Shown here: positions 4,486 to 59,271 of the stretch, piece after piece
Numbering within the stretch: the first letter of the stretch is position 1
Layout of the letters: each line of letters starts with the position of its first letter
The notes under the pieces: generated by a model
What the model was told of the DNA's origin: nothing
Seen by the model: the letters and a program-made list of their open reading frames with translations, nothing else
Databases searched by the model: none
NCBI RefSeq assembly: GCF_900119185.1
Contig: NZ_FPJE01000020.1
Location: 1 to 64,000, forward strand
Length of the DNA stretch: 64,000 bases
Direction of reading: 5' to 3'
From: Sinomicrobium oceani
GTDB taxonomy: Bacteria > Bacteroidota > Bacteroidia > Flavobacteriales > Flavobacteriaceae
Made by a program: the position numbers and the translations under genes

Positions 4486-5184
4486 TTAAAGCGTATGGTG
4501 GAGGCTGAGCTGTAATTGTCCTTTGTCGACCGTATTGGTAGATTGCCGCATATATCCGGCCTGTACCCTAAGCTGATCGGTGATGCTGTATCCAAGTGCC
4601 GTATACAGGCGGTTTCTGTCGAAAATCTCTACCGTATTTCCATGGCCCGTATCTTTTTGTCCGTTGATAAAAACTTCGTTGTACAAGGCAATATAAACCG
4701 CACCCTGATCAAGGGTGGTACGGTTTACCGGGACATTCAGGAAGAGGTTATACCGGATCCTGGTCCGGAAATCCTGATTTTCAACCCATCGCTGTTCATA
4801 ACGGAAACGGTGGGTCAGGTGAAACCGGTCCGCAAGTCGGTGAGGAAGCAAGGCTTCCTGGTACACCCTGCTTTCTTTACGGGTTGTACCGGAAGAACCG
4901 TAAGTGCCTGATAATACATAAGCATAACCAAGAGTAAATTTGATATTGGCTTTTTCCGGCTCGTATGTCGCTCCCCCACGTAGAAGAAGCTGCTCCAGGT
5001 CGCCTATCATATCCCAGTTCCGATATTGGAGATCTCCCTGAAGACCAAACCTGCTGTTTTGAAAGGTAGTATTCCAGAAATACATATACCATGCGCCTGT
5101 TTCGTTTTCATTGACCTGCGCAGTAGCATGGTCAGGAAATGAGAGATAAGCGATCAGAGCAAGGAAAAAGACTGTTTTTCTCAT
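4486..5184 (-). CDS. DUF2490 outer-membrane beta-barrel protein
   Basis: A 232-residue protein with a signal peptide (MRKTVFFLALIAYLSF, cleavage near ATAQ) and then alternating hydrophobic and polar strands rich in Tyr, Arg and Gly, ending RVQAGYMRQSTN and LQLSLHHTL with a C-terminal Leu. This is the DUF2490 pattern in Bacteroidota; members are small predicted outer-membrane barrels with no known substrate. The conserved WYMYFWN and the central RYEQRW segment are present. It is the last gene of the long minus-strand run and is separated from the DUF349 gene by 165 bases with two small inverted repeats. Confidence 0.78.
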   Translation of the reverse strand: MRKTVFFLALIAYLSFPDHATAQVNENETGAWYMYFWNTTFQNSRFGLQGDLQYRNWDMIGDLEQLLLRGGATYEPEKANIKFTLGYAYVLSGTYGSSGTTRKESRVYQEALLPHRLADRFHLTHRFRYEQRWVENQDFRTRIRYNLFLNVPVNRTTLDQGAVYIALYNEVFINGQKDTGHGNTVEIFDRNRLYTALGYSITDQLRVQAGYMRQSTNTVDKGQLQLSLHHTL

Positions 5185-5270
5185 AGGTGTTTAACGTTTG
5201 TGAGTTATATGATACAGGTCAGGTGGTGGTATTGTAGGCTGTGGAAGGCAAAGCAATGCCATGCGGTTTG

Positions 5271-5306
5271 GACAGGAGTAATCCTGTCTACGAGCGTTGT
5301 ATACAA
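5271..5306. repeat. two small inverted repeats upstream of the DUF2490 gene
   Basis: GACAGGA (5271-5277) and TCCTGTC (5282-5288) form a perfect hairpin, and GTTGTATACAAC (5295-5306) is a perfect palindrome. Neither is followed by a T run, so they look more like protein-binding or RNA-structure sites than terminators. Confidence 0.45.
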
Positions 5307-5349
5307 CCGCTGAAGGAAGGGGGAAAACCCGGAATCGGGGAAACGGATC

Positions 5350-7317: not shown

Positions 7318-7355
7318 CTTAAAAATGTTTAGGGTTCATCATCACTTTAGAACGT

Positions 7356-7385
7356 GAAAGATACTAACAACTCTCAAAATAGCAA
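7356..7385 (-). promoter_or_regulatory. probable promoter of the DUF349 gene
   Basis: On the minus strand TTG (7385-7383), 19 bases, then TATCTTTC (7363-7356), one base off TAnnTTTG. The start codon is about 40 bases downstream. Confidence 0.5.
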
Positions 7386-7639
7386 AACTTTTAAAGCTTT
7401 TAGAAACCCCTAAAGGTAAAATACAGGCATGTTTTTTAGGGAAACGATGATTTGGATAGGAGGAGCTCCTGGGGTGTCATTAATGGGGTACCAGGTTCAT
7501 GGGTTAATGAGAAGTGAAACTCCGGAATAACGGAGCAACTCCGTAACTCCACAGACCAAATAACTCAAGAACCAACCACAGTAGCCCGAGCTCAGCGTTT
7601 TCAGCCTTTATCTTAATTTCGTGTGCTTTGTGTTACCCT
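7386..7639. other. non-coding stretch between aroE and the DUF349 gene
   Basis: No convincing reading frame, RNA fold or terminator is seen. It contains short echoes such as AACTCCGGAATAACGGAGCA and CAACTCCGTAACTCC near 7517-7550, which look like small degenerate repeats. Confidence 0.5.
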
Positions 7640-8380
7640 TTACCTCGGAGGGGTATTCCAGATCTCCCAGGCTTTCTCGGCCTGAAAACGAAGCATCTGC
7701 AATCCGTTACTGGTAGTTGCTCCTTTTTCCTTGCCTGCTTTCAGAAACGAGGTTTCTGCCGGGTTGTAAATAAGGTCATACAGCAGGTGTTCCGGTCCTA
7801 TAAGATCATAGGGGAGCTGCGGTCTGTCTTCGACGTTCGGAAAAGTTCCCAGGGGCGTACAGTTGATGATCACCGTATGAGACCTCATGATCTTTTCGTC
7901 GAGGTCGTAATAAGAAAACTGTCCTTCTTCCGGTTTACGCGAAACAAAAGTATAGGCAATACCCAGTTCTCTAAGACTGAATGCAATAGCTTTTGAGGCT
8001 CCTCCCGTACCGAGGATCAGTGCTTTCCGGTGGTCTTTTCGCAATAAAGGTTGTAAGGAAGCCTGGAAACCGTAATAATCGGTATTGTATCCTGTGAGTT
8101 TATCCTTTTCGATCTTAATGACATTGACAGCACCGATCTCTTTCGCTTTGTTGCTCAGTCCCGAGAGGTACGGTATAACAGCCTCCTTGTAGGGAATAGT
8201 GACATTACAGCCCATAAGATCGGGGTGTTCCCGGAGGGTCTCCGGAAATTCACGGATATCCTGAAGGTCAAAATTGACATAGGTATGATCCGTCAGTTGT
8301 AATTTTTCAAATTTTTCCCGGAAATAAACCTGGGAGAAGGAATACGATATGTTTTTTCCGATAAGTCCGAATAGTGGCAT
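7640..8380 (-). CDS. aroE: shikimate dehydrogenase
   Basis: A 246-residue NADP-dependent enzyme that reduces 3-dehydroshikimate to shikimate in aromatic amino-acid synthesis. The substrate-binding part has GLIGKNISYSFSQVYF near residue 5, CNVTIPYKEAVIPYL near residue 60 with the catalytic Lys, and AVNVIKI; TGYNTDYYGF near residue 98 holds the catalytic Asp. The nucleotide-binding part has LILGTGGASKAIAF near residue 121 and the later INCTPLGTFPN. Length is slightly short but usual for Bacteroidota. It follows the two DUF368 genes after 67 bases and may be read with them. Confidence 0.92.
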   Translation of the reverse strand: MPLFGLIGKNISYSFSQVYFREKFEKLQLTDHTYVNFDLQDIREFPETLREHPDLMGCNVTIPYKEAVIPYLSGLSNKAKEIGAVNVIKIEKDKLTGYNTDYYGFQASLQPLLRKDHRKALILGTGGASKAIAFSLRELGIAYTFVSRKPEEGQFSYYDLDEKIMRSHTVIINCTPLGTFPNVEDRPQLPYDLIGPEHLLYDLIYNPAETSFLKAGKEKGATTSNGLQMLRFQAEKAWEIWNTPPR

Positions 8381-8447
8381 ATATTCTTTTTTTGTTCAGA
8401 GCCCTGCCGGAGCGGCATTGGTGTTTAAGGGCCGTTTAGCAAAAAGT

Positions 8448-9467
8448 TTAGGTGTTGATCCTTTTAGTGTACCTCCCGTACCATTCCAGAGCAAGTACGA
8501 TCAAGACTCCAAATATAATAAAACCTATGGCACCCCAGGTCTCGGGGGAAGAAAAATCGGGAATATATCTTTCGTAGTTCTGTATAATACGGTGCCCTTC
8601 ACTGTCCAGGATATAGCTGCCGTTTTCGTGCATCCTGTACATCGTTTTTTTCCAGGGCCAAACGACCCCGAGCGATCCCGTAATAAAACCTATGATAATA
8701 GCCGTAGTTATATTTCTGAAATGTTTGAGAACGTAGCTCAGTAAATGGGAGAGGGTTACAAGTCCGGTCGCCGATCCGAGGGTGAATACGGCGAGTATCG
8801 TAAGAATGTTCAGCCGTTCCTGGTTTTGCAGGAAGGAGAAATCGCCCCGGAATATTTCGGCCATGGTATCGTACAGTGCATTAACCGAATCGACGAGCAA
8901 CAGTACGTAATTTCCCAGCAGGATGAGTATAAAAGAGCCGGAGAGCCCGGGGAGTGTCATCCCGGAAACACTGATAATCCCGCACAGAAAGACGAAGAAC
9001 AGGTTGGTGTTTTCCCTTGCCGGACTCAGGAAACTGATCGATATCCCGGCGATAAGCCCTATAACGGCCGATATCACGGTTTTGCGATTCCAGGAAAACC
9101 CCCGGGAGATGTAGTAGATCGACCCGATGATCATTCCGAAAAAGGCAGCCCAGACATAGAGTTCTTTCCGGGCAATAAAATAATCGAGTATCCGGGAAAC
9201 GCTGAAATAGCTGACCAGCATACCGAAAATAAGAAGCCCCAGAAATTTTCCGTTGATATAGCGGTAAAATGACCTGAACCTCCCGTTAATGAGAAGTTTA
9301 AAGGCCTTCAGGTTAACTTTTTGAAGCGAATAGATAAATTCCTCGTAAAATCCGGCTACAAAAGCTACAATACCACCGGATACGCCGGGCACCTTGTTGG
9401 CGGCCCCCATAGCGAGTCCTTTGATGACCAGAAAGATCTGGTCGCCTGGTGTTCTGTAGCTGTTCAT
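8448..9467 (-). CDS. DUF368 membrane protein, second copy
   Basis: A 339-residue polytopic membrane protein of the DUF368 family. The family signature is duplicated within it: AMGAANKVPGVSGGIVAF near residue 19 and SGMTLPGLSGSFILILLGNY near residue 175, with about eight hydrophobic segments. DUF368 proteins have recently been shown to carry undecaprenyl phosphate back across the cytoplasmic membrane (PopT-type), which recycles the lipid carrier for wall and envelope glycans. The start is ATG 9467: it overlaps the previous stop as TAATG, so it is translationally coupled; an upstream open frame to 9659 is only a shadow of the preceding gene. The C-terminal loop contains KTMYRMHENGSYILDSEG, specific to this copy. 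Confidence 0.85.
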   Translation of the reverse strand: MNSYRTPGDQIFLVIKGLAMGAANKVPGVSGGIVAFVAGFYEEFIYSLQKVNLKAFKLLINGRFRSFYRYINGKFLGLLIFGMLVSYFSVSRILDYFIARKELYVWAAFFGMIIGSIYYISRGFSWNRKTVISAVIGLIAGISISFLSPARENTNLFFVFLCGIISVSGMTLPGLSGSFILILLGNYVLLLVDSVNALYDTMAEIFRGDFSFLQNQERLNILTILAVFTLGSATGLVTLSHLLSYVLKHFRNITTAIIIGFITGSLGVVWPWKKTMYRMHENGSYILDSEGHRIIQNYERYIPDFSSPETWGAIGFIIFGVLIVLALEWYGRYTKRINT

Positions 9468-10435
9468 TAGCTTTTCTGAGCTTTTACGGCAATTTTTTCC
9501 AATAAATATATGGTAAAAAACCCTGCCAGTGCAAGTAGACATGCAATAAGCAGCTGGCTGTCTCCGTCGACATGGAAAGGAGAGATACTGCGCTGCAGTA
9601 CGGGTACTTCCTGCTGGTGTGAGTTGATACGCCAGGTCAGGGTTTCTTTCCAGGGCCATATCTTGTTGAGTGACCCGATCATAAAACCGGTGAGCAGCGC
9701 AAGAGTGGTGTTTTTATGATGTTTGAACATCCAGTGGAGCGCTCCCGAAAAAACCTTAATGCCCAGCAAGGCTCCAATGCCAAAAACGGCAAGTTTGGAG
9801 AATGCCTGCCCCAGTACCTGCATATTTCCTTCAAACAAGCCTTCCCGTAACTGATTGATCGTGTTGATAACAATCTCGTACGAACCCATAAGCAACAGGA
9901 TAAATGCTCCGGAAATTCCAGGCAGGATCATGGCAATGATGGCAATGAAACCCGAAAGGAAAAGATAGGTGTAACCATCGGGGGAAGATACCGGATGTGC
10001 AACGGTGATGTAATAGGATACGATACCACCCAGTACTGCCGCTATGATTACTTTTGCCGACCAGCGGGTAATTTGTTTTCCTATAAAATAGATACTGGCG
10101 ATAACCAGTCCGAAAAAAAACGACCATACGGCGATGGGATGAGTGTCGAGTAACCAGCTTATGAATCGTGCCAGGGAAAATATACTGATAGCGATCCCGG
10201 TGACGAGTGCCAGCAGGAAATTCCCGTTAATACTGGTCCACATGGCTCTGAAGCCACTTTTTTTCCATAGTTTAAGTGAGGAAAAGCTGATATTGTTGAT
10301 AGATTGTATCAGCTCCTCGTATATCCCGGAAATAAATGCTATAGTTCCCCCCGAAACGCCGGGGACGACATCGGCGGCTCCCATAGCCATTCCTTTAAGA
10401 GTGATGATCAGGTAATCCAGTAGCCTTCTTTGCAT
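9467..10435 (-). CDS. DUF368 membrane protein, first copy
   Basis: A 322-residue paralogue of the gene that follows it. It has AMGAADVVPGVSGGTIAF near residue 15 and AMILPGISGAFILLLMGSY near residue 175, with about eight membrane segments. By family it is a candidate undecaprenyl-phosphate transporter in the inner membrane. I start it at MQRRLLDYLI (10435); an ATG seven codons upstream at 10456 is equally in frame. Its stop overlaps the next start (TAATG). The tandem paralogues suggest two carriers with different partners, direction or conditions, but that is inference. Confidence 0.85.
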   Translation of the reverse strand: MQRRLLDYLIITLKGMAMGAADVVPGVSGGTIAFISGIYEELIQSINNISFSSLKLWKKSGFRAMWTSINGNFLLALVTGIAISIFSLARFISWLLDTHPIAVWSFFFGLVIASIYFIGKQITRWSAKVIIAAVLGGIVSYYITVAHPVSSPDGYTYLFLSGFIAIIAMILPGISGAFILLLMGSYEIVINTINQLREGLFEGNMQVLGQAFSKLAVFGIGALLGIKVFSGALHWMFKHHKNTTLALLTGFMIGSLNKIWPWKETLTWRINSHQQEVPVLQRSISPFHVDGDSQLLIACLLALAGFFTIYLLEKIAVKAQKS

Positions 10436-10468
10436 GTGCTGTTCTTTGACGAACAAAAATAGGTAATT

Positions 10469-11875
10469 TTAAATAGAAGCCTTTTTAAAATCTGTTATAA
10501 AATTCTTAACGGTCTTACTGTCAAATACCGATGGGAAGAGCTCTTCCAGGATAATCTGTTCGTCGTAGTTATCGGTAAGTGCATTTTTCAGATGCGAACG
10601 TCCTTTACGGTAATCGGACAGGGTAAAATAGAGGCCTGCGATACGGTATTCCAGACATGCTTCCTTCGGATAAAATTCCAGGGCCTGCAACATCACGTGT
10701 ACTGCATTTTCGAATTCCCCTATTTTTACGAGGATGTCACACCATGAAGTCCAGGTCTGGAGCTCGTAATTTCCGAGTTCTATGGTTTTCTGGTACGAGA
10801 TGTCCGCTTCCTCGTAGAGATGCAGCTGTTTGTTGATCTCCGCACATCGCTTCCAGTAAGCGATGTTCTCACTGTCGATATTAAGAGCCTTGTTGATATA
10901 ATACTTGGCTTTCTGGTAATTGAATTGTTTCAGGTAAAAATCGGTAATAGCTATCCAGCCCTTATCCAGCAGAGGGTCTTCATGGACGGTTTTGTAATAA
11001 TACTGCTTGGCAATATTGTCATTACCGAGTTTTTCGTGACATTTTCCTATGCGCAGGTATGCAAAAGAGGTGGGGTCGTCCAGGCCGAGGGTAAGCTCGT
11101 AGTTGGCTATGGCTTCATTGTAGCGGCCGAGTTTTTCCAGTACTTTTCCTTTTTCCAGGTAAGCCCCTATGAACGTGTCGTCCGAAATGATGGCAAAATC
11201 AAAAGCGGCAAGGGCCTCCTTCAGCATTTTTTTATGAAAGTACTGTTTTCCTGCCTGGTGCCAGCCCACTTCACTGTACGGGTTACGTTCCAGGTAAGTG
11301 TTCAGGTATGAAATGGCTCCGTCGTGATCTTCGAGAAAATCAAAACAGTAAATAATATTGTAAAGCGCCGGGTAGTCTTCCGGGTCTTCGTCGAGACATT
11401 TTATAAAACAATCCTTGGCCTCGGCATACTGATCCAGAAAAAGGTGCTCCATACCGATCAGCGAATATACATCGGCACTGTCGTCCGTATACACCAGGGC
11501 CTCCTTAAGAAGCTCGATAGCCATGACGTGATTGTCCTTTTTGGAGTATATATTGGCCCGTTGTATGTAAATCTCTTCGTTGGACGTTTCTATCAGGGCG
11601 AGTTCGTCGAGCATTTTTTCTGCCACGTCAAACCTGTTTTCGAAGATCAGGACTTCGATATGCAGCAGTTTTAACGTCGTGGAAGAGGTGTGCTGTTCCA
11701 GTCCGATCTGTATGGCCTTTTTGGCCAGAGCCACTTTCCCCATATCGAGATAGTGGTGAATAATGTCCTCAAAATCATCCGCATCAAAAAAATAAACATC
11801 ATTTGTTTTGAGCATGGACTCGAATTTCGAAATGGGAAAGTTTCGGTCTTCGTTAGAACTAAATGGCATAAGCAT
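10469..11875 (-). CDS. TPR-repeat protein
   Basis: A 468-residue soluble protein made of about eleven tetratricopeptide repeats. Clear examples are AAFDFAIISDDTFIGAYLEK, AIANYELTLGLDDPTSFAYL and AKYYINKALNIDSENIAYWK. The N-terminal 40 residues (FPISKFESMLKTNDVYFFD) are common to flavobacterial homologues. There is no signal peptide. TPR arrays hold protein complexes together; the partner is unknown. It is read in the same direction as the DUF368 pair, 12 bases before the first ATG candidate of that pair, so probably in the same transcript. A start at 11869 is also possible. Confidence 0.82.
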   Translation of the reverse strand: MLMPFSSNEDRNFPISKFESMLKTNDVYFFDADDFEDIIHHYLDMGKVALAKKAIQIGLEQHTSSTTLKLLHIEVLIFENRFDVAEKMLDELALIETSNEEIYIQRANIYSKKDNHVMAIELLKEALVYTDDSADVYSLIGMEHLFLDQYAEAKDCFIKCLDEDPEDYPALYNIIYCFDFLEDHDGAISYLNTYLERNPYSEVGWHQAGKQYFHKKMLKEALAAFDFAIISDDTFIGAYLEKGKVLEKLGRYNEAIANYELTLGLDDPTSFAYLRIGKCHEKLGNDNIAKQYYYKTVHEDPLLDKGWIAITDFYLKQFNYQKAKYYINKALNIDSENIAYWKRCAEINKQLHLYEEADISYQKTIELGNYELQTWTSWCDILVKIGEFENAVHVMLQALEFYPKEACLEYRIAGLYFTLSDYRKGRSHLKNALTDNYDEQIILEELFPSVFDSKTVKNFITDFKKASI

Positions 11876-44896: not shown

Positions 44897-45808
44897 ATGA
44901 TGAAAAAAATATTTTTCTTATTTTTTGTAATCCCCTTTTTGTCGTTAGGGCAGTCCAACACCTTTCCCGCTACCGGAAATGTCGGAATCGGGGTAGAGAC
45001 CCCTACGGGAAAACTCGATATAGCGGGGTTGACCTATCTCAAGGGAGCACCCTCCTATTCGGTAATCGCAGAACAGTTAAGGATAGGGAGAAGAGACCAG
45101 AATATTCGTTACCATTCGCTTTATTCGTTTCACGGAGGAGCCGGACATACCAATTACCTGCAGTTTCGTGTACATACCGGTAATACAGAAGACCTGGAAG
45201 AACAGGTAAAGGTTATGACGCTTAACGGAGATGGTAATGTAGGTATAGGAACGGAAGCCCCGGATCATAAATTGGATGTAATGGGAATTATTAAGTCCAA
45301 TACAGGTATAATAGTGTCCAATCCGGATTCCCGGTCATCCAGAGTGACCCTGGATTGGTTGAATGATGTAGCTCGTATTCGGATAGGAGGAAGTGGGAAT
45401 GGAGCAGGTAATGGTTTGGATATTCAGTCTCAGGGGGATAAAAGCCTGATGCGCTTGCTTCAAAATGGTAATGTCGGGATCGGAACAATTACCCCGGATT
45501 CCAGGTTATCCGTAAACGGTGTAGTGCATAGCAAAGAAGTAAAGGTAGACCTCAATGGCTGGAGCGACTTTGTTTTTAAAAAGGACTATGCGTTGCCCAC
45601 GCTGGAAGAAGTGGAACAGCATATCCTGGAAAAGGGGCACCTCAGGGATATTCCCAGTGCGGAAGAAGTTTCGGAGAACGGCATCTTACTGGGAGAGATG
45701 GATGCGAAGCTGTTGCAGAAGATCGAGGAACTGACCCTGTATATCATCAGTCTGCATAAGAAGATGGAGCAGCAACAGCAGGAGATAGATAAACTTAAAA
45801 ATAAATAA
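44897..45808 (+). CDS. secreted NVGIGT-repeat protein with C-terminal coiled coil
   Basis: A 303-residue exported protein (signal peptide residues 1-19, ending FLSLGQ). It carries four copies of the tail-fibre-like motif N-V-G-I-G-x(3-4)-P: NVGIGVETP, NVGIGTEAP, NVGIGTITP and the partial TFPATG start, each before a KLDV- or RLSV-type strand. The C-terminus has FVFKKDYALPTLEEVEQHI, then IPSAEEVSENG, then a coiled coil (LLQKIEELTLYIISLHKKME) to the end. This layout is common in Bacteroidota and resembles the neck of phage tail fibres with a chaperone-like end; the role is unknown. GHLPDIPSA is the usual wording, here GHLRDIPSA. It is followed after one base by its paralogue. Confidence 0.8.
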   Translation: MMKKIFFLFFVIPFLSLGQSNTFPATGNVGIGVETPTGKLDIAGLTYLKGAPSYSVIAEQLRIGRRDQNIRYHSLYSFHGGAGHTNYLQFRVHTGNTEDLEEQVKVMTLNGDGNVGIGTEAPDHKLDVMGIIKSNTGIIVSNPDSRSSRVTLDWLNDVARIRIGGSGNGAGNGLDIQSQGDKSLMRLLQNGNVGIGTITPDSRLSVNGVVHSKEVKVDLNGWSDFVFKKDYALPTLEEVEQHILEKGHLRDIPSAEEVSENGILLGEMDAKLLQKIEELTLYIISLHKKMEQQQQEIDKLKNK

Positions 45809-45809
45809 T

Positions 45810-46766
45810 ATGAGAGTATTATTATTTTTTGTAGTACTGGGATTGTTCCGGTTTTCCGCCGGTGCACAGAATACTTTTCCCGCTTCGGGAAATGTTGGGA
45901 TAGGGTTGACTTCTCCTGCTTATAATCTCGATATAAGGACGGACCACCCCATTTTTCAGATGTTGGAAAACGGGTCCGGAGGAAGAAGAAGACTGATCTT
46001 TAATGTAGGGGAAAATAATGAGATCAGGATTGTATCTTCCTATGGGAATTCCGGGAATTACCCGTTGACCTTCCGTTTCGGCGGTAGCGTCGGGGAAGTT
46101 ATGCGGCTGGCAACAAATGGTAATATAGGGATAGGGACCACCAACCCGCAAAGTAAACTGGATATATACGGAAGAGGAGACGGGGCTTCCTTGCTGAGGT
46201 TCACCACCGATCGAAGCTGGGAGTTTATACAGTCGGGTGCCGATGTGACAGCAAGCCTGGTTTTAAGGTCGGTTTATAACAGTAAATCTTTTCGCATTCA
46301 ATCTTCGGGAGGTACGAATAATGCCAGTTTCCGTACACATGATAACCCTGCGGACAACAGGATTTATTTTTTAACCCAAGGTGGCAGGTTGGGCATAGGA
46401 ACAGCCAGTCCTGATGCCGAGCTGACAGTCAAAGGAAAAATACATACGCAGGAGATCAAAGTAGACCTGGCAGGGGGTGTGGCACCGGACTATGTTTTTG
46501 AGGAGGGCTACGATCTGCGTTCGCTGGAAGAAGTACGGGAATATATCGGCAAGAACGGACACCTGCCCGGAATACCTTCTGCCACGACCATGGAAACCGA
46601 AGGTATAGACCTCAAAGCGATGAACCTGAAGTTGCTGGAAAAGATCGAGGAACTGACCCTGTATACCTTACAACAGGAGGAAGATCTTCAGCGGAAAGAT
46701 GAGAAGATCAATGACCTGGAAGACCGGTTGAACATTTTGGAAAAACTAATATATCACAAAAACTAA
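45810..46766 (+). CDS. secreted NVGIGT-repeat protein, paralogue
   Basis: A 318-residue exported protein (signal peptide residues 1-20, ending RFSAGAQ), a diverged paralogue of the previous gene. It has NVGIGLTSPAYNLDI, NIGIGTTNPQSKLDI and RLGIGTASPDAELTV, then YVFEEGYDLRSLEEVREYI, GHLPGIPSATTMETEG, and a coiled coil from LLEKIEELTLYTLQQ to the C-terminus. The middle (about 110-190) is unlike the first copy and may be the part that binds a target. The two genes abut, so they are cotranscribed and may form a hetero-oligomer. Confidence 0.8.
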   Translation: MRVLLFFVVLGLFRFSAGAQNTFPASGNVGIGLTSPAYNLDIRTDHPIFQMLENGSGGRRRLIFNVGENNEIRIVSSYGNSGNYPLTFRFGGSVGEVMRLATNGNIGIGTTNPQSKLDIYGRGDGASLLRFTTDRSWEFIQSGADVTASLVLRSVYNSKSFRIQSSGGTNNASFRTHDNPADNRIYFLTQGGRLGIGTASPDAELTVKGKIHTQEIKVDLAGGVAPDYVFEEGYDLRSLEEVREYIGKNGHLPGIPSATTMETEGIDLKAMNLKLLEKIEELTLYTLQQEEDLQRKDEKINDLEDRLNILEKLIYHKN

Positions 46767-48731: not shown

Positions 48732-51700
48732 ATGAAAAGATTAAAACGTTCGCACCGGGTCATAGCACTTTTCCTGGTCTTTAGCATGTTGCCTGCTCTG
48801 GTGCCCTACAATATGTTGCAAGCTTCCGGAAACGGACCGACAGCTCCGGAAGCTACCGGATTTGAGCCCGTTGACGCTACTGATATGGTCAACCTGATGA
48901 CCGGCGATTTATCTTATGTGTTACCGCTGTTGAATGTGCCCTCTCCGGAGGGCGGATACCCCCTGGCCCTGGCGTACCACGCCGGTATCGCCATGGACCA
49001 GGAGGCCTCCTGGGTGGGATTGGGCTGGAGCCTAAACCCGGGGGCTATCAACCGATCGGTAAACGGGTATCCTGATGATTATAATGCTTCTTTGCTGACG
49101 GAATATTTTTATGATCAGGGGGGGAGAAAAGATATGTATTCCTTGTCTCTGGGGTTTACCAGTAAAGCAGGCGTATCCGTAGGACTCGGCTTATCGTGGG
49201 GAAGTAATCGCAGTCTTGGTGGCTATGTGAGTGTGGGATATGGTCTGGATATAGGACCCAACGCAAATGCTCGCATAGGAACAAACGGCATAGGAGTCGG
49301 AGGTGGTTATACCGTAAATGGAGGGTTGTCAGCAGATTTTAATGCTCATACTTCAAATGGCTTAGGAGGTTCTGTAGGGCTTAATAACGGAGAGGGTTTT
49401 GAAGTGGGACTTTCTTCTTCCGGAACACTTAGTATTTATCAAACTTCTGGTAACCAGTCCATAGGGATGAGTATGTCTTCAAAAGGTATGGGAGTTTTTA
49501 TGGGAAGTAAAAATACTCATAGTACTAATGTGATACAGGGAGTAGGTGTTGGTTTAAGAATGTCTTTCAACAATACGATGAGTATGGGAGACTATACTGT
49601 CGAAAGCAGTGGATGGGCTATCCCGGTAACAATACCCACTCCGATCGGCATTTTCAGTCTTTCATTCGGAAAACAGCGGATGAAATATTACCTCAACAAA
49701 AAGGTGTATAATTATGTAAACGGACCATTGTTTTTTAATGAAATGATTAAAAATGAAGAAATCTATAAAGTTGAAATATTAGTGGGTTCAATCGATATGG
49801 GTTTTGCAATTTATCCTGTAGGCTTTGCCTCTACTTATGAAGAGGGAGTTCAAATGGCTATTGATGCGGGAGCCTATGAGGATGCTTATCGTGTTACAAA
49901 AATAAGAACAGATGAGGCATTTATGGATATTTATGAAGTTCCTATAAAAGGTAAGGAAATTTCCAGGAAGGGAGAACTGGAATTTAATAATCCGGTATTT
50001 CCCGCTTATGATAATTATAATGTACAGGCCCAGGGAATATCGGGAAGCATGTCGTCCAGGTTATTTGAAAACGGAGTGTTGTATGGGCTTTCAAATAAAG
50101 AAAATGATCAGGGATATCAGCTAAAACATGCTTTAGACGGATTTTCATCCCGGTTTCCTGATCATGCCCGTTTTGATGGTAAGCCCTATTTCTATATCGA
50201 TAATGAGATCAGTACATATCTCGAGGTGAAAAATGCCAGTTTTAATTCCGGGACTATGCATTCCGATATATTGGACTATTATTCGACGGGAGTTAAGAAC
50301 CTTCCCGAGAACAGAAGGGTCAATAGTAATTTTATCGAGTATTTCACGAACAGGGAAATCCGGGAAAACCCTGTGGATGTATTGAAAAAAGGATTCTTAC
50401 ACCCACTGGCTTCCGGTTTTTCCAGGATGAACTATCCTTCTGATGGGATAGGAGCTTTTAAAATCACAGCTCCGGATGGAAAGACCTATCATTATTCGCT
50501 CCCGGTATACAATCACGAAATTGTAACCCGGACTTTCGGAGTGGTAAAGAACAATGCTGCCGAAGCAAAATCTTATTTTGAAAAACGTCAACTCGAACCT
50601 TATGCCACGCACTGGCTGCTAACCGCAGTGACCGGTCCTGATTTTGTGGACACCAATGGTAATGGTATGGCAGACCAGGGGGATTACGGCTATTGGGTAG
50701 CTTTTGAATACGGAAAATGGTCGGAAGCATTCGGCTGGAAAACGCCTTATGGAACAAGTTACCTGGAAGACGACAGTGACCCGGGGGTAAAGACCTATAT
50801 TCGCGGACGAAAGGAAGTATATTATCTCAACAAGGTAATAACCCGCACACATAAAGCCTTATTTATAAAGGAAGAGCGAAAAGACGCCGGGTCTTCAAGA
50901 TGGGCTTATAATTCGGTAGCTCATAAAGAAGAGCAACAGAGCCAGAGTAACTATGTGAACCGGTTTACCCTTCCGAGACAGAATTCGTTGCGGTTGAGCA
51001 AGATTATCCTGGTAAAGAATCCGCATGACGTATACACGCAGCCTGCAAACTCCAGGCCTTCCTCCTCGGTTGAAGTTTTGTATAACGATTCCTCCAAACC
51101 GGCACAGAATGCAGAATACAATTTATGGAAAAATGTCCTGGATATAGACGATGACTGGCAGGCCGTAATGGACAAAGCCGTCAAAGTAATTGATTTTGCG
51201 TATGATTACAGCCTTGCTGAAAATGCCCCGGATGCCTCACCTATTAGCGGACGATCTGCTTTGAGGGGGGTACAATTCAGGGGTAAAAAAGGAGCTTTGG
51301 TGATTCCCCCGTATCGTTTTGCGTATTACGATGGCTATGGCGATTTTAATATAGAAGATAAGGACGAATTCGGATATTATGGAGCCGATAACAAATGGTG
51401 TTCTCTAAAAACGGTAATTACGCCGCAAGGGGGACAAATGCACATAGTATATGAAGGACACAACATAAAACCGGCTTTCGTTTCTTCGGTACGTTTTACC
51501 AGGGGAGCATCCGCAAATTATAAAATATCCAAGATCAATGCTGTGACTTATCGTATAGAGTCGGGGGAAAATGTAGGGATACAACCGGGGGATCAGCTTT
51601 CTTTCAAATATAGCAAGGTATGTGAGTGGGAAGATCAGGGAAACTGTGGAGGTCCATGTGGGTATGAAACCGAACATTGTGATTTTGAGGCTATGGCAAC

Positions 51701-53924
51701 GGTTACATCACGGGATGGCAATAACAAATTTACACTATCCATACCAGCTAACGAATGTAGCTATATCGACCAGAATTTCAATTGCGACCTCACTACGGAG
51801 ACATTCTCTGCCGAATTTAAACTCACCGATGCCCTGGAAAACCTCGGTGGAATTCGTGTACGTGAAATTATTACATCAGACGGGACAGGCCGGACGTATA
51901 ATACAACATACCGGTATGGGAAAAATGAGAATGGTGTAGGGTATATCTCTTACCTGCCTTATGCTCCCGAATTACAGCAGGAGCTGCCGTACAGTGCGGA
52001 GCTGCCTGCACCCAAAGTGATGTATGACCAGGTAAGTGTGGAGTTTCCGGATGGCCGGAAAAACCGATACTATTATTCGGTAATGAAGGAGAAAGATCCC
52101 GAAGAGATTAAATACGAAGACTTTTATGAGATTTCGAAAACGGCTTCGGATATCAATAATACAGCAAAAGGAGTAGATGTCAATGTAAGTACCTTTACCA
52201 TAAAGGACAACCTTTCGGCGCTGGGCAGACTGGAAGCTGTAGAAGTATTGAACAAATACGGGCAGCAGCTGAGTAAAATAGAAAATGAGTATTACGATCC
52301 CGGAACAACACCGGGTGTAGCCGGAGTTACCCAGGAATCATATCAAAGCTATAAGATCGTAGACTACAAACAAAATACCGGCAGCCGTAAAGATAAGTGG
52401 CTGATCAATTCTTCGTCGCGTATCCGGTACCCGAATGTGCTAAAATCATCTGCAGAGTACAGGAACGGACATGTTTTCCGAACGGTATATAAAGATATGG
52501 ATCCGGTTACCGGGGTGTTCAGGGAAGCCGAAACCACTTCTGCTTCGGGTGAGCAACTCGTATCCCGTGCAGTTCCTGCATATATACGTTATCCTGAAAT
52601 GGGGAGTATGGTTCACAGCAACACGAATAAAAACATGCTTACCCAAATCGCGGAGACCTATAGTTATATCAGGGAACAAGGAGGGGCCAAAAAGTATATG
52701 GGAGCCGGAATTACCACCTGGAAACCCGAACAGTACGATTATACGATTTACACCGGGCCGCCCCACGCACCTGTATCGACGGGTGCCTCTGCCGATGTTT
52801 GGAGAAAACATAAAAGCTATACCTGGGACGGGGCCTTGGATAATGACGGTACACTTGCGACGGAGCCTGGGAATTTTATATGGTCTTCTCCTTCGGCTAC
52901 ACAGCCTGCCGGATGGAAACTGCTTTCGGAGATCACCCTGTACGACAACTTTTCGAATGTACTGGAAGTTAAAGATATCAATGGTAACAAAGCCGCAACG
53001 AAAAGGGGAGATGGGTCTTCTAAAGTTTTTGCTACCGGCAATACAGCCTTTAACACCATGTTCTATTCCGGATTGGAAGAAGGAACAGGAACTACGATTG
53101 CAGAAGGCGTGACGCGGGATGCCACAGCGGTTATTACATCGTCCAGGGCACATACCGGTAGCCGTTCTGTACAGGTAGCTTCCGGTGTTAAAGCCTTTAA
53201 GGTAAAACCTGGTCAGGGTGGTACCTACCGTGTTTCGGTCTGGGCACATACTTCCGGTTATACCGGGGCGCGTGTGGTTTCGGGAGGACAAAATTATACC
53301 TATCATCAGGACGAATTGGTCCGGGCCGGTGATTGGGTACAACTCAATTTTGACATAGCAGTGAACGCAGGTACAGAGGTGGCCCTGACTTCTGCTTCCG
53401 GGACCGTGTATTTTGATGATTTCAGGATACACCCCGTAAGTGCCGGGATGTCTTCTTATGTATATAATGAGGATGATGAACTTACATATATTCTGGGGCC
53501 AAACAATATGGGAGCCAGGTATGTGTATGATGCCGGGGGGAGGTTAAAAGAAACCTATACGGAAATTGCGGATACAGAAAACTTAACAGGAGGGTATAAA
53601 CTAACTTCAGAAGTTGCATATAATTATGCAAGAATAGAGGATAGCCCTTACGTACCTTTAAAAGTAGAATTGTGGGAAGAAGGCACCTACCCAAGCCATA
53701 AGGCAGTGATGCGTGCCTCCGGAGGAAGCGGACAATATGAATATCGCTGGTCTATGCAGTGTGGTTCTTATGCAAGTAAATATGGTAATTGGACTTCTTC
53801 ACAGTCATTAATTCTTTTAAACAACTGCTCGGATAGGGTGTACGTTAGATGTGAGGTTAGGGATCTCAGGTCGGATGAAATCAAGAATGATGCAAGAACA
53901 TATAAGGTTGAAAATCAGCTTTAA
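48732..53924 (+). CDS. giant exported RHS-system protein, first half
   Basis: A 1730-residue protein with an N-terminal signal (residues 10-35). Residues 50-115 (NLMTGDLSYVLPLLNVPSPE, then SWVGLGWSLNPGAINRSV) match the start of large flavobacterial proteins found beside RHS genes and resemble the SpvB-like start of Tc toxin B subunits. Residues 130-270 are a Gly/Ser-rich, AT-rich segment that looks variable. A Cys-rich insertion (KVCEWEDQGNCGGPCGYE) is near residue 960. YD-type repeats (SYVYNEDDELTYILG, ARYVYDAGGRLKETY) lie near residues 1575-1615, and an Ig-like end follows. It should form part of the RHS shell; the next gene carries the core and tip. Confidence 0.8.
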   Translation: MKRLKRSHRVIALFLVFSMLPALVPYNMLQASGNGPTAPEATGFEPVDATDMVNLMTGDLSYVLPLLNVPSPEGGYPLALAYHAGIAMDQEASWVGLGWSLNPGAINRSVNGYPDDYNASLLTEYFYDQGGRKDMYSLSLGFTSKAGVSVGLGLSWGSNRSLGGYVSVGYGLDIGPNANARIGTNGIGVGGGYTVNGGLSADFNAHTSNGLGGSVGLNNGEGFEVGLSSSGTLSIYQTSGNQSIGMSMSSKGMGVFMGSKNTHSTNVIQGVGVGLRMSFNNTMSMGDYTVESSGWAIPVTIPTPIGIFSLSFGKQRMKYYLNKKVYNYVNGPLFFNEMIKNEEIYKVEILVGSIDMGFAIYPVGFASTYEEGVQMAIDAGAYEDAYRVTKIRTDEAFMDIYEVPIKGKEISRKGELEFNNPVFPAYDNYNVQAQGISGSMSSRLFENGVLYGLSNKENDQGYQLKHALDGFSSRFPDHARFDGKPYFYIDNEISTYLEVKNASFNSGTMHSDILDYYSTGVKNLPENRRVNSNFIEYFTNREIRENPVDVLKKGFLHPLASGFSRMNYPSDGIGAFKITAPDGKTYHYSLPVYNHEIVTRTFGVVKNNAAEAKSYFEKRQLEPYATHWLLTAVTGPDFVDTNGNGMADQGDYGYWVAFEYGKWSEAFGWKTPYGTSYLEDDSDPGVKTYIRGRKEVYYLNKVITRTHKALFIKEERKDAGSSRWAYNSVAHKEEQQSQSNYVNRFTLPRQNSLRLSKIILVKNPHDVYTQPANSRPSSSVEVLYNDSSKPAQNAEYNLWKNVLDIDDDWQAVMDKAVKVIDFAYDYSLAENAPDASPISGRSALRGVQFRGKKGALVIPPYRFAYYDGYGDFNIEDKDEFGYYGADNKWCSLKTVITPQGGQMHIVYEGHNIKPAFVSSVRFTRGASANYKISKINAVTYRIESGENVGIQPGDQLSFKYSKVCEWEDQGNCGGPCGYETEHCDFEAMATVTSRDGNNKFTLSIPANECSYIDQNFNCDLTTETFSAEFKLTDALENLGGIRVREIITSDGTGRTYNTTYRYGKNENGVGYISYLPYAPELQQELPYSAELPAPKVMYDQVSVEFPDGRKNRYYYSVMKEKDPEEIKYEDFYEISKTASDINNTAKGVDVNVSTFTIKDNLSALGRLEAVEVLNKYGQQLSKIENEYYDPGTTPGVAGVTQESYQSYKIVDYKQNTGSRKDKWLINSSSRIRYPNVLKSSAEYRNGHVFRTVYKDMDPVTGVFREAETTSASGEQLVSRAVPAYIRYPEMGSMVHSNTNKNMLTQIAETYSYIREQGGAKKYMGAGITTWKPEQYDYTIYTGPPHAPVSTGASADVWRKHKSYTWDGALDNDGTLATEPGNFIWSSPSATQPAGWKLLSEITLYDNFSNVLEVKDINGNKAATKRGDGSSKVFATGNTAFNTMFYSGLEEGTGTTIAEGVTRDATAVITSSRAHTGSRSVQVASGVKAFKVKPGQGGTYRVSVWAHTSGYTGARVVSGGQNYTYHQDELVRAGDWVQLNFDIAVNAGTEVALTSASGTVYFDDFRIHPVSAGMSSYVYNEDDELTYILGPNNMGARYVYDAGGRLKETYTEIADTENLTGGYKLTSEVAYNYARIEDSPYVPLKVELWEEGTYPSHKAVMRASGGSGQYEYRWSMQCGSYASKYGNWTSSQSLILLNNCSDRVYVRCEVRDLRSDEIKNDARTYKVENQL

Positions 53925-53959: not shown

Positions 53960-56900
53960 ATGAAATATACAATCATTATAAAGACATTGATATTCATATT
54001 TTTCTGTTTTTCCGTTTATAGCGGAAATACCCAGTCGTATTCCATCGGAAGAATCGGAGGATCCGCAGGCACTGCGAATAATGGAGACCGCGCGAACTAC
54101 GTAGTTTACAAAAACGGTACAATTATGAGCAGCGGATATATGAATGATATAGAATGGAGAGTTTCAGGAGGACAGATTGTGGGAGGAACCAGCAGTTCAA
54201 GCCTCACTGTATTATGGAATGGAGATGTTCGTAATTGCAGAATAAATATATTATTTAAAGATGTTCAGGCGGGTGGATATTATAGTGCATCGCTAAGCGT
54301 TACTGTTGAAGGAACATCACCGGACAGACCGCCTTATCCAAAAATTCAATCCAGGGATTGTGGTGAAGTTATAATAGCTTACGAGGGAACTCCGTTAAGG
54401 GGAACTAACTGGTATTGGCAGGGAAAAAACCCCGATGGCGAGAATACTAACCTTGGGTATGGAAAGACATTCAGTGCCAGTGATGGCAATGGAAGATATT
54501 ATTTGCGAGCAAAAAATAGTTTTGGGTGGAGTAAGACTTCAAGTTACATAGATGTTGAAATAACCGATACCCCTCAAATACCGGATATGCCCGGCATTAA
54601 CATGATAAACAACGGGGAAAGTGTTGTTTTGACTAAGGGTACTCCTCCAAATGGAGTCGAATGGTATTGGCAGGAATCTGAGAATGGAGAAAGTACCGAT
54701 AGCAGTGAGTCCAGCATAACCCTTACCACCGGAACCGTATATTATATTAAAGCAAGGAGTATAAGCCTAAATTGCTGGAGTGCTGCAAGGAGAATTAACT
54801 ATACACTTAGAAATCCGGATTTAGATCCTTATGATGTTTTGGAGACGGATAGAAATTGGATGTCTTCAGTATCTTATGATATTACAGGAGTTATAAAAGA
54901 AAATTCCATAAGATATGCCAATGCTTTGGGAAACACAGAACAAATTCAGCATGTAGATATAAAAACTGCTAAACTATGGACTACTCATACATTGTATGAT
55001 AAAGAGGGAAGAGCAACCTTTCAGACTACGGGGGCTCCTTTGGATGCATTAAAATCGAGTACATTTCAATTTCGTAATGATTTCATACGAAAAAGCAACG
55101 GCAGCAATTATAGTACTGCCGATTTTGAAACCAATCCGGAAAATCCTGCCGCGGTTGGTAACCAGCCCGGGACCTTAGGCTGGTATTACAGTGAAAACAA
55201 TACTTCGGAACCCTACCAGGATATAACCGCTTATCCTTTTTCGAGGATGATATTCAGCGACCTTAATCCCGGAGCAGTGTTGAAACATGTAGGCGGAAAT
55301 AAGGTCAACGGAACATGGCCGCAGTCTTATGTATTCAGTATGCAGACCTCCGGCGAACTCGCACAAAGCGCAGCTTTCGGAGAGGGCAGGTATGCTACGG
55401 TAAAAACAATAAAAACGGTAAGCAGGGATGTACATGGTGTGGAAAATGTCATTTTTACGGATACCGATGGTAAGACCCTGGCTGCTGCAAGAAGCGGGGG
55501 AGGCAGTGCGCGGAATATGAATATAAAAATCGGGGCACAGGGCTATGTGGATATCCATGTACCTGCCGGGACAACAGGTTTTACAGTGAACAGGCCATCC
55601 GGAGTACAGACCTCGGTATATGATCTTATTACGGAGAACCAGGTAACTACAGCCACCACATCACTTCCCAACGGGTTTTATCGTGTTGCAGTCACTGATG
55701 TGGATAATTACAATCCTGCGACCCCCGTGCAGGTTACATACAAAGAAAATTATTACGATTATGCGTTAAACGAATACGATAAGGCAGGACATCTGATCGC
55801 CTCTTATCAACCCTACGGGAATACGAAATCTGTCAAACCTAAGACCACTTTCAAATATGATGCCCTGGGACAATTGATATATACGAATAGTCCGGATGAG
55901 GGAGAGGCCTGGTTTAAATATCGCAGGGATGGCCAGATACGATATTCCCAAAATAGTAAACAAAAAGCGGAAGGAGAGTTTTCCTATACCAATTATGATA
56001 ACCTGGCCAGGCCTGTAGAAAGCGGAGTACTGGTAAGCACGGCTTTTAATAATGCCGACCCGGATGCCTCCCTGCCCGCCGGAACCAAAAAAGAACAGCA
56101 GTTTACGGTTTACGATGCCGGGGAGAGCATTAGTGTGGGCAGTGGTGCCAGGAAACAGGCTTTTGCAGCCGGTAATGTGGCCAGAACCTATAACGACCAT
56201 ACGACCACCTGGTACAGTTACGATATCTACGGCCGTGTAAACTGGATCGTACAGGATATCCCCGGAATAGGTAAAAAGACCATAGATTACGAATATCACC
56301 CGGTAAGCGGACTGGTAAGCCAGGTGGTTTACCAGAAGGATGTAGGTGCCGAACGCTTTATACACCGGTACACATACGACAAGACCGACCGGCTGATCAA
56401 GGTGGAAACCTCTGTTAACGGCAGTACGTATACTACCCGTGCTACCTATAGTTATTATGAGAACGGGGCCCTGAAACGGACAGAACTGGGCAACAAACTG
56501 CAGGGCTTGGACTATGTTTACAATATTTCCGGGCAGTTAAAGAGTATCAATCACCCTGCCTTGAGTGCTGCCAAAGATCCCGGGGCGGACGGTAATGATA
56601 TTTTCGGTATGACGCTGGACTATCACCGCAATGATTATATGCGTAATATCGACGGCTTAAGTCCGGCTACCTATGGGAACGATCGCCTGGACGGGAATAT
56701 CAAGGGGGTCCGTTGGAACAATAAATACCAACCGCTTACCGGTGCGGAAAATGCCTATAATTATACCTATGACCGGAATAACTGGTTGGCAGCAGCTACC
56801 TATGGACAATATGCCGAATCTTTCGGCTCGGATATAGAGGCAGATATTACTTCTGCGGCAGTGACCGGGAGTGGAGAGACCCTTCCCCTGGAAGCTACCG

Positions 56901-58468
56901 GCAGTATTACTTTAAAGCCCGGTTTTCATGCCAAAGCGGGGAGCACTTTTACAGCCAGGATCGTCAAGGTAGATGGTTTTGCAGAAAATGCCAAAGGCGA
57001 TTATAAGGTCACATTAACCTACGATGCCAACGGTAATATACAAACCCTGGAGCGGAACCAAAATACTGTAGGCAGCAGTAATGCGATGGACAAGCTGACG
57101 TATAATTACAGCAATAGCAAACCCAACCGTCTGGACCATGTAAAAGACGCCGTAACTGCAGGCACCGGGGCCGATGATATCAAAGGGCAGGCCAGCGGGA
57201 ATTATGTATATAATACGATCGGGCAGTTGACAGAAAATAAGGAGGAAAATGTTAAGTACCGGTACACTGCTTCCGGCCTCGTAAGTGAGGTATTGAAAAA
57301 TAATGTACCTTTGGTTAAGTTCTTTTACAACGACCGCGGTCACCGGGTAAAAAAGGAAAGCTATACCAGCGGTAGCCTTGCTAAAACCGAATATTACGTC
57401 AGGGATGCTTCCGGGAGTGTTATGGCCATTTACCAGGGGACTTCGGCAAAGGAATATCCCATTTACGGAGCAAGTCGTCTTGGTGTGTATTTTAAAACCG
57501 GTAATACAGCTGTCTACCAGTTAACGGACCATTTGGGGAATGTAAGGGCATTGGTACAGGAAAGTGGGACACTGGCGGGGGCTACGGATTATTACCCCGG
57601 CGGGATGGCAATGCCTGCAAGAAAATTATCGGATGCCGAAGGTTACCGATATGGTTATCAGGGAGATTTTGCTGAAACCGATGAGGAAACCGGGAAACCT
57701 GCTTTTGAGTTAAGATTATATGATCCAAGAATTAATAGGTGGTTGACAACAGATCCTGCTCAACAGTATGATAGTCCCTATCTTTCTATGGGGAATAATT
57801 GGGTGAACAGGAGGGATATTGATGGAGGGGAAGATAGTCCTATTTTTGATCAGGATGGTAATTTTTTAGGTGTAGATGATCAGGGATATCAAGGACAAAT
57901 TATTATAATGGATAGGGATAGATATGGGAAACTTGTAGCTAATTGTGGCCCGGGCGAAATAATGAGCCATGAAACTGCGATGAAAAATAATTTAGGCCTT
58001 TCCTCTTTAGGAGAAAATTTTGAAGCTATGTCTAAAATTCAAACACATGTAATGAATGAAAAAGGATTTGATATTAATAAATTCCATAATGGAATGACTT
58101 CTATCACTAGTGGTTTTAGAAGGAATGGTGTTTTAGAAGGATTTAATGATCCTGCGTCAGCTCAAAGATATAAAGGAACTCCTTTGGAAAATGGATATGT
58201 AAAGGTTACTACCAAAGCCTCTTACTTTTCAGAATTAAGCACAGTTGAACTAATAGTCAATTACCTCGGTGTTCATGAATTTACTGGGCATGGATTAAAT
58301 AAATGGATTAATGGAACGGATCATTATAAAGCTTATGAACTCCAAAAAAAGCATGAATCTTTTCATAACCTTCCTGATTGGGCTAAAGAAGAAATCAACA
58401 ATAGGATTTATGATCCTAGGAATAGACCGGACGGTTACATCCCTCCAAGGGGTTGGAAACGAATGTAA
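53960..58468 (+). CDS. RHS-repeat protein with C-terminal HEFTGH tip (candidate polymorphic toxin)
   Basis: A 1502-residue exported protein (signal peptide residues 1-24). Two Ig-like units near residues 110-290 share a GTP-x(2)-G-x(2)-WYWQ motif. YD repeats run from about 590 to 1250; ITLKPGFHAKAGSTFTA near residue 980 is a known adhesin-like insertion. The RHS core (YRYGYQGDFAE to NRRDIDGG) is at 1228-1291. After it the DNA becomes AT-rich and encodes a 210-residue tip with GVHEFTGHGLNKW (HEFTGH at 1439-1444) and DHYKAYELQKKH (His1455), suggestive of a metal-dependent enzyme, though not a standard HEXXH. RHS tips are toxic effectors held in the shell; toxicity here is inferred. It follows the 1730-residue gene after 35 bases. 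Confidence 0.82.
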   Translation: MKYTIIIKTLIFIFFCFSVYSGNTQSYSIGRIGGSAGTANNGDRANYVVYKNGTIMSSGYMNDIEWRVSGGQIVGGTSSSSLTVLWNGDVRNCRINILFKDVQAGGYYSASLSVTVEGTSPDRPPYPKIQSRDCGEVIIAYEGTPLRGTNWYWQGKNPDGENTNLGYGKTFSASDGNGRYYLRAKNSFGWSKTSSYIDVEITDTPQIPDMPGINMINNGESVVLTKGTPPNGVEWYWQESENGESTDSSESSITLTTGTVYYIKARSISLNCWSAARRINYTLRNPDLDPYDVLETDRNWMSSVSYDITGVIKENSIRYANALGNTEQIQHVDIKTAKLWTTHTLYDKEGRATFQTTGAPLDALKSSTFQFRNDFIRKSNGSNYSTADFETNPENPAAVGNQPGTLGWYYSENNTSEPYQDITAYPFSRMIFSDLNPGAVLKHVGGNKVNGTWPQSYVFSMQTSGELAQSAAFGEGRYATVKTIKTVSRDVHGVENVIFTDTDGKTLAAARSGGGSARNMNIKIGAQGYVDIHVPAGTTGFTVNRPSGVQTSVYDLITENQVTTATTSLPNGFYRVAVTDVDNYNPATPVQVTYKENYYDYALNEYDKAGHLIASYQPYGNTKSVKPKTTFKYDALGQLIYTNSPDEGEAWFKYRRDGQIRYSQNSKQKAEGEFSYTNYDNLARPVESGVLVSTAFNNADPDASLPAGTKKEQQFTVYDAGESISVGSGARKQAFAAGNVARTYNDHTTTWYSYDIYGRVNWIVQDIPGIGKKTIDYEYHPVSGLVSQVVYQKDVGAERFIHRYTYDKTDRLIKVETSVNGSTYTTRATYSYYENGALKRTELGNKLQGLDYVYNISGQLKSINHPALSAAKDPGADGNDIFGMTLDYHRNDYMRNIDGLSPATYGNDRLDGNIKGVRWNNKYQPLTGAENAYNYTYDRNNWLAAATYGQYAESFGSDIEADITSAAVTGSGETLPLEATGSITLKPGFHAKAGSTFTARIVKVDGFAENAKGDYKVTLTYDANGNIQTLERNQNTVGSSNAMDKLTYNYSNSKPNRLDHVKDAVTAGTGADDIKGQASGNYVYNTIGQLTENKEENVKYRYTASGLVSEVLKNNVPLVKFFYNDRGHRVKKESYTSGSLAKTEYYVRDASGSVMAIYQGTSAKEYPIYGASRLGVYFKTGNTAVYQLTDHLGNVRALVQESGTLAGATDYYPGGMAMPARKLSDAEGYRYGYQGDFAETDEETGKPAFELRLYDPRINRWLTTDPAQQYDSPYLSMGNNWVNRRDIDGGEDSPIFDQDGNFLGVDDQGYQGQIIIMDRDRYGKLVANCGPGEIMSHETAMKNNLGLSSLGENFEAMSKIQTHVMNEKGFDINKFHNGMTSITSGFRRNGVLEGFNDPASAQRYKGTPLENGYVKVTTKASYFSELSTVELIVNYLGVHEFTGHGLNKWINGTDHYKAYELQKKHESFHNLPDWAKEEINNRIYDPRNRPDGYIPPRGWKRM

Positions 58469-58480
58469 TATGTGAGTACT

Positions 58481-59011
58481 ATGAAATATTTATTTACAAT
58501 TGTCATTGTTTTTTTATATGGGTGTAATAATAGTAAAAAAATTAGTGTCAATTCAATCACTTTTGAGTCCCATATTTGTTTTAATAAAGATTCGGATATT
58601 TTGCGATTTGATGATGTTCATATCATAGTCAATAAAGTAGATACAACTATAGCAAAAAGAGACTTTTTTATTGTTTATGATAAAGATACTATTTCTCTGA
58701 TTCCACCTTTTTCAGATGAAAATATAATAAATGAAGATAATTTATCTTTTAGGTTTTCCAAAAATAAAAATTTGCAAGAAAACTTGGTGTCTAATCAATT
58801 TGAAATTATTGATAAAATTAAAAAAAGTTCTTTATTTTATATGAAAGGTGGTAATGAAAGAATATTAGGTAAGACGAGAATGAGTGATTTAATAGAAAAG
58901 GATTCTATTATTGTGAACTTTTCCTATTTAGATCAAGATTTTATTTATATGTTGAAAGGGAATAATATTAGGAGAGAAAATCATATTTCAAAAGAAGTTG
59001 ATTGTAACTAG
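58481..59011 (+). CDS. small lipoprotein, candidate immunity protein
   Basis: A 176-residue protein starting MKYLFTIVIVFLYGCNNS, a lipoprotein signal with the lipid-bearing Cys at residue 15. The rest is a predicted beta-rich domain (ISVNSITFESHICFN, RFDDVHIIVNKVDTT) and a C-terminal IIVNFSYLDQDFIYMLKG. The DNA is the most AT-rich of the window. It begins 12 bases after the RHS stop, the usual place of an immunity gene; a periplasmic lipid anchor would suit a tip that acts on the envelope. No family recognised. A GTG at 58472 adds three residues and is less likely. Confidence 0.6.
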   Translation: MKYLFTIVIVFLYGCNNSKKISVNSITFESHICFNKDSDILRFDDVHIIVNKVDTTIAKRDFFIVYDKDTISLIPPFSDENIINEDNLSFRFSKNKNLQENLVSNQFEIIDKIKKSSLFYMKGGNERILGKTRMSDLIEKDSIIVNFSYLDQDFIYMLKGNNIRRENHISKEVDCN

Positions 59012-59027
59012 GGCCTGTTAACATAAG

Positions 59028-59271
59028 CCCGCTCAACGAAGTATAGCATGCTTCTGCATATGTCTCCGACTTCGTAGTTCCTTGCATGTGAATGATATAC
59101 AAATACGTTAAACCCCTCTCAGAGGGGCTTCAGGATTATATTTTATGCTTCCGACTTGGTTAGTGCCGTACCCGCTCCACGAAGTGTTTTATGCTCTGCG
59201 AACGTCTCCGACTTCGCAGCCTACTGCACACTAGGGGACAGACCAATATGTTATGCACCTCTCTGAGGGGT
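59028..59271. repeat. degenerate direct repeats downstream of the RHS tip
   Basis: Two copies of a roughly 50-base unit, CCCGCTCAACGAAG to CTCCGACTTCGTAG (59028-59077) and CCCGCTCCACGAAG to CTCCGACTTCGCAG (59171-59219), each with CGAAG/CTTCG inverted ends. Each is followed by a palindrome: CCCCTCTCAGAGGGG (59113-59127) and a weaker ACCTCTCTGAGGGGT (59257-59271). A further partial unit (CTTCCGACTTGGTTAGT) is at 59148. They look like remains of an array that once flanked tips. Confidence 0.6.

Follow-up and report, generated by a model that had tools for sequence, protein, structure and literature searches.

A 64,000-nucleotide stretch of the Sinomicrobium oceani genome (contig NZ_FPJE01000020.1, positions 1 to 64,000; hereafter the window) carries a gene for an RHS protein, and the C-terminal tip of this protein was analyzed together with the lipoprotein gene that follows it. 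Profile searches, profile-profile comparison, an AlphaFold model and a phylogenetic tree give good support to the tip as a sister clade of Tox-MPTase2 (PF15638), a predicted zincin toxin family. The tip is probably an envelope-acting metallopeptidase toxin of the exported RHS protein, with the downstream lipoprotein as its immunity partner. The evidence computed here comprises the homology of the tip, its predicted fold, the conservation of its motif, its exchangeability, and the inheritance of the tip together with an exported partner throughout the family. The features concerned are as follows, by position in the window.

53960-58468, + strand: open reading frame (ORF) of the RHS protein, 1502 amino acids, stop codon TAA at 58466-58468
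53960..57823, + strand: residues 1-1288, signal peptide (recognized by eye), RHS/YD-repeat body and RHS-associated core
57824..58468, + strand: residues 1289-1502, the predicted C-terminal toxin tip, 214 amino acids from G1289, zincin-like, sister clade of Tox-MPTase2
58274-58291, + strand: HEFTGH, with predicted zinc ligands H1439 and H1444 and predicted catalytic E1440, in invariant columns
58319-58354, + strand: DHYKAYELQKKH, with H1455 predicted as third zinc ligand
58352-58366, + strand: HESFH, a formal HExxH look-alike with its E not conserved in six relatives
58481..59011, + strand: lipoprotein, 176 amino acids, predicted immunity protein, lipobox FLYGC with Cys15

By sequence, the tip alone matched nothing in Pfam or NCBIfam at E ≤ 5 and nothing in PDB at E ≤ 10. 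With zero match to PF15638 at E ≤ 5, it stays below the Pfam cut-off of that model (25 bits), and the window's genome as a whole gave no PF15638 match. The conserved HExxH of Tox-MPTase2 is replaced in the tip by HEFTGH. Lacking both a sufficient score with the model and the HExxH motif, the tip lies outside Tox-MPTase2 as defined by Pfam and by the 2012 survey of polymorphic toxins (PMC3482391). Protein searches with the tip detected relatives, from 75% down to 27% identical, in long RHS proteins (P0004-P0006) and in short frames (P0007-P0009); the tips of P0004, P0007 and P0008 share 53-75% identity with it. A ten-row profile of the tip, run at E ≤ 0.01 against 395 genomes of the order and 395 of the phylum, matched 14 and 9 of them, respectively; both counts include the window's own genome, and two of the phylum matches repeat those of the order. 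Profile matches at L076 in the order and at L082-L086 in the phylum were judged false or doubtful.

PF15638 was matched at E ≤ 1 by 9 of the 19 aligned members (L017, L064-L068, L071, L077 and L078, the last under the cut-off), with a best value of 4.4e-23, and, by elimination, by none of the 10 members with HExxxH. Comparison by hhalign of 13 HExxxH rows with 8 PF15638-matching rows gave an E value of 1.1e-10 and a probability of 97 over 177 columns. A tree of 27 tips separated all 14 HExxxH rows from the other 13, which carried HExxH, HEGGKVSH-like or HEGGSTVPSH motifs, at a branch supported at 96/94; the inner placements are unsure because seven end branches are long. The tree holds 27 of 29 rows, L100 and L101 being omitted as fragments; L074, L080, L083 and L093 were also not included. 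Alignments A4-A8 were made without L081 (one ambiguous letter), L073, L074, L079 and L080; L087-L101 date from a later stage. The domain had been called new-looking in a preliminary description of this DNA. It is new with respect to direct Pfam matches and not new with respect to ancestry, given its sister position to Tox-MPTase2; a non-toxic homologue of the tip, which that description named as evidence that would count against a toxin, did not turn up in any search carried out.

For the tip, AlphaFold with 21 rows gave a mean predicted local distance difference test score of 90.7 and a predicted template modelling score of 0.87. In the model, HExxGH lies on helix 141-158, behind several strands, and H167 (H1455 of the RHS protein) on helix 164-176, the predicted secondary structure following the zincin-like layout of strands, then a helix with a variant HExxH, then a later helix bearing the third ligand. 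Foldseek with this model found zero matches in PDB at E ≤ 0.001. Of the top eight chains by VIA-align, seven belong to zincin peptidases (BlaR1, selecase, jannalysin) and the remaining one to a baculovirus cap protein; the best Z, 6.2, is middling. The predicted zincin-like fold of the tip is well supported at the level of the model.

The lipoprotein gene had been described as AT-rich and located 12 bases past the stop of the RHS gene. It starts at exactly this distance with ATG 58481, an in-frame GTG at 58472 being an alternative start, and its G+C content (GC) is 0.23 in two 300-base windows inside the gene and 0.46 just beyond it. The next same-strand gene was then compared between the tip family and other RHS loci. 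At 22 usable family loci, the window included, it encoded a lipoprotein in 18 cases, a signal-peptide protein in 4 and a protein without export signal in none. At 26 control RHS loci of relatives, a lipoprotein was found in 12, a signal peptide or membrane protein in 8 and neither in 6. As the differences are modest (Fisher test, p 0.017 for lipoproteins and 0.025 for exported proteins) and some genomes contribute more than one locus, an exported partner alone says little here.

Twenty-seven family loci were run for the next gene and five were excluded, namely L018 (transposase-like ORF after the tip), L079 and L080 (frame continuing through the lipoprotein), and L083 and L093 (the match contains a stop, and no gene was detected after it). 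Repeat fetches (L088-L092, L094-L096, L098, L099) and the false or doubtful L076, L082 and L084-L086 were not run. The 22 kept include L063, which is the window, L074 with a broken tip, and L100 and L101 with partial frames near contig starts. The controls were 30 in total, 3 being without a next gene and 1 running off the end. Export was called in both sets by reading and by one simple rule (up to five ATG starts, signal-bearing start preferred).

Since exported partners are common beside other RHS tips, the co-inheritance of tip and partner provides stronger evidence. All 18 of 18 partner pairs scoring at least 12 bits sit beside tips that score at least 65 bits mutually, examples being L016 with L081 (different families) and L069, L072 and L075 (three genera). 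Over 23 loci, this link between partner homology and tip homology was reached by 0 of 10,000 label permutations. Tip and partner appear, from these comparisons, to be kept together across genera, as would be expected of a toxin and its immunity protein. The preliminary description's proposal of a toxin acting in the envelope, paired with exported immunity, is favoured, as 22 of 22 usable family loci have a lipoprotein or signal-peptide partner and partner families track tip clades.

Several observations qualify this pairing. Exported or membrane partners stand beside 20 of the 26 control tips. Shared ancestry of whole loci contributes to the link between tip and partner. The tips of L064-L068 are close, yet the partners of L065 and L066 have no detectable homology to those of L064, L067 and L068. 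Homologues of the window's lipoprotein were found neither in a set of 5.8 billion proteins (self only) nor in five other genomes of the genus or in plasmids; its likeness to the partners of L065, L066 and L074 is weak and a lead only. As no homologue of its own was detected, its role is deduced from the family, and its position, export signal and the family pattern point to an immunity protein.

The orphan state of this lipoprotein leaves some room for a toxin of the same fold that acts in the cytoplasm, the lipoprotein being unrelated or surface-acting and the true immunity lying elsewhere or working by blocking entry. The 6 of 26 control loci with a partner lacking an export signal point the same way, indicating that RHS proteins can carry other kinds of tip. 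Such a cytoplasmic tip is nevertheless unlikely, since no usable family locus (0 of 22) has a next gene missing an export signal and the partner families follow the tip clades.

Some of the loci show side features of this gene order. L079 (1126-2463) and L080 are near-identical loci of one genome with tip and lipoprotein in a single continuous frame, which may be a natural fusion, a damaged gene or an assembly error. At L018 (3610-4737), a Persicobacter plasmid has a related tip separated from a lipoprotein ORF (4858-5367) by an ORF that looks, by reading, like a transposase. In the one genome that holds L087, L097, L100 and L101, several PF15638-type tips are located near two contig starts, with a lipoprotein gene after each.

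Both HEFTGH and the later DHYKAYELQKKH, pointed out from the sequence at the outset, are present in the tip. The accompanying statement that no standard HEXXH occurs is correct for HEFTGH and inexact for HESFH, which formally fits. HESFH was rejected as the active site: six relatives carry K, S, P or R in place of its E, and it is regarded as a chance look-alike because this residue is not conserved among them. In a seven-row alignment of the window and these six relatives, the residues H, E, G and H in HExxGH were invariant, as was the histidine of DHYKA. The third-ligand column holds H in 17 of 19 aligned rows and E in the other two (L072, L078). HExxxH is kept in 14 of the 27 tree tips, and those of known place span several genera, indicating that the motif is more than chance. 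Zinc would be bound at H1439, H1444 and H1455, and the tip is predicted to be a peptidase.

The unusual HExxGH motif, the variable spacing within the family and the lack of a direct match to a catalytic family could be read as signs of a non-catalytic or non-peptidase domain that retains a zincin-like fold. We consider this quite improbable, since conservation is complete or highest at H, E, H and the third-ligand position. Furthermore, dipeptidyl peptidase III (DPP III) works with HEXXGH, and the zinc site of a HEISH relative is reported to be not significantly different (PMC5805324), so that an extra residue in the zinc helix is compatible with catalysis. A broader proposal, to which we give somewhat less than an even chance, is that the HExxGH tips are an unrecognised clade in which one residue of the catalytic zinc helix was gained once, in parallel to DPP III. 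The wider family carries the spacings HExxH, HExxGH, HExxxxxH (HEGGKVSH) and HExxxxxxxH (HEGGSTVPSH); on this proposal all of its members would be antibacterial, and a separate family of exported immunity proteins would go with each subclade.

The RHS body was matched by YD_repeat_2x and GCX_COOH of NCBIfam and by RHS_repeat of Pfam, and Rhs_assc_core (NCBIfam) scored 32.2 bits against the 32.5 required. The body/tip boundary is marked by DGGED (residues 1288-1292). The body has 66% and 70% identity to two proteins found elsewhere in the genus, in other genomes, and the best alignments to them, a single one being retained per pair, stop at residues 1299 and 1290, at the tip start; the C-terminal end of the first differs, by reading, from the window tip. 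In the C-terminal half of the body, windows from 55850 to 57649 have a GC of 0.43-0.51, and those in the tip have 0.32-0.35. In the window's genome, tip and lipoprotein each occur once and RHS core matches occur at 10 places. The locus thus has the conserved body, exchangeable C-terminal tip and downstream partner gene of RHS polymorphic toxins. Polymorphic toxins are reported to include processing metallopeptidases (PMC3482391), yet a tip that processes the RHS protein itself or remodels the surface, with the lipoprotein as tether or chaperone, is most improbable for an exchangeable domain at the extreme C-terminus where similarity to the two same-genus proteins ends.

For the envelope-acting toxin, the following mechanism is proposed. 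The RHS protein would be exported by Sec and then possibly by type IX secretion, and the tip would be delivered into the envelope of a neighbouring cell. There, a zincin site formed by the HExxGH helix, one residue above HExxH, and the histidine of the next helix as third ligand would cleave some envelope protein or peptide. In the producing cell, the lipoprotein would be anchored in the envelope and would block the tip by binding to it. SprA is present in the window's genome and no VipB match was found there, which fits a type IX route for the RHS protein and does not prove it. TANFOR proteins, another polymorphic toxin class of Bacteroidota, have been proposed as type IX substrates (PMC7073777).

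If the pairing is correct, Tox-MPTase2, listed without an immunity protein in its survey row, would gain a consistent class of partner, and it is joined by an HExxGH clade that the Pfam model misses. The frequency of lipoprotein partners at RHS loci of relatives (12 of 26 controls) hints at frequent attack on the envelope in this group. Motif spacing that varies within one family bears on the tolerance of zinc sites to insertions; if true, the spacing series would be a natural set in which to study how catalytic zinc sites withstand added residues and how immunity proteins adapt alongside.

Upstream of the RHS gene, one further RHS-type gene was found.

48732..53924, + strand: ORF of an RHS-type protein, 1730 amino acids, a presumed companion by adjacency

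This RHS-like exported protein gave zero Pfam matches at E ≤ 0.01, and the RHS system seems to be split over the two proteins at 48732-53924 and 53960-58468. Further upstream, at 44897-46766, lie two adjoining signal-peptide proteins with NVGIG-type repeats, the second matching a T4 tail fibre only weakly (E 0.005, below cut-off). Past the lipoprotein, at 59053-59219, are two 25-nucleotide direct repeats, 84% alike. At the locus L056, a second RHS protein of 1503 amino acids (7199-11710) is encoded on that locus's contig, with a different-looking tip and a lipoprotein gene 2 bases later.

Among known systems, Tox-MPTase2 is homologous across most of the tip, including the N-terminal D..G.FLG module, and shares with it the C-terminal place in RHS proteins, the occurrence in Bacteroidota and the predicted zincin nature. 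The tip differs in its lack of a direct Pfam match, in HExxGH instead of HExxH and in its separate clade. The survey row for Tox-MPTase2 reads 'Y, HExxH', Bacteroidetes, TcdB/TcaC export and RHS repeats, with a dash for immunity proteins, whereas the window tip is followed by a lipoprotein; its peptidase toxin activity is there a prediction only (PMC3482391). No later study of Tox-MPTase2 or PF15638 was found in a search that left most subscription journals outside. Peptidase family M49 (DPP III) shares the six-residue HEXXGH and also has five-residue HEXXH relatives, but its members are described as two-domain enzymes of about 550-740 amino acids with glutamate as third ligand, compared with 214 amino acids and histidine for the tip. 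Membership in M49 was rejected on this length and on the absence, by reading, of the second motif EEC[RK]A, and the likeness in motif is taken as convergence. Imm65, the immunity protein for Tox-JAB-1 and, by the survey's account, apparently the sole lipoprotein in the 2012 collection (PMC3482391), is likened to the window's partner by its lipobox only, the toxin family being different. By way of working only, the window pair would resemble VgrG2b/PA0261 and Tpe1/Tpi1, in which an envelope-acting zinc metallopeptidase toxin is combined with a periplasmic, membrane or lipoprotein immunity protein; these differ in type VI delivery and in belonging to proteobacteria. The nearest tested system is VgrG2b/PA0261: the metallopeptidase domain of VgrG2b has reported toxicity in the periplasm but none in the cytoplasm, and is neutralised by periplasmic PA0261, relatives of which are predicted lipoproteins or membrane proteins (PMC6899460).
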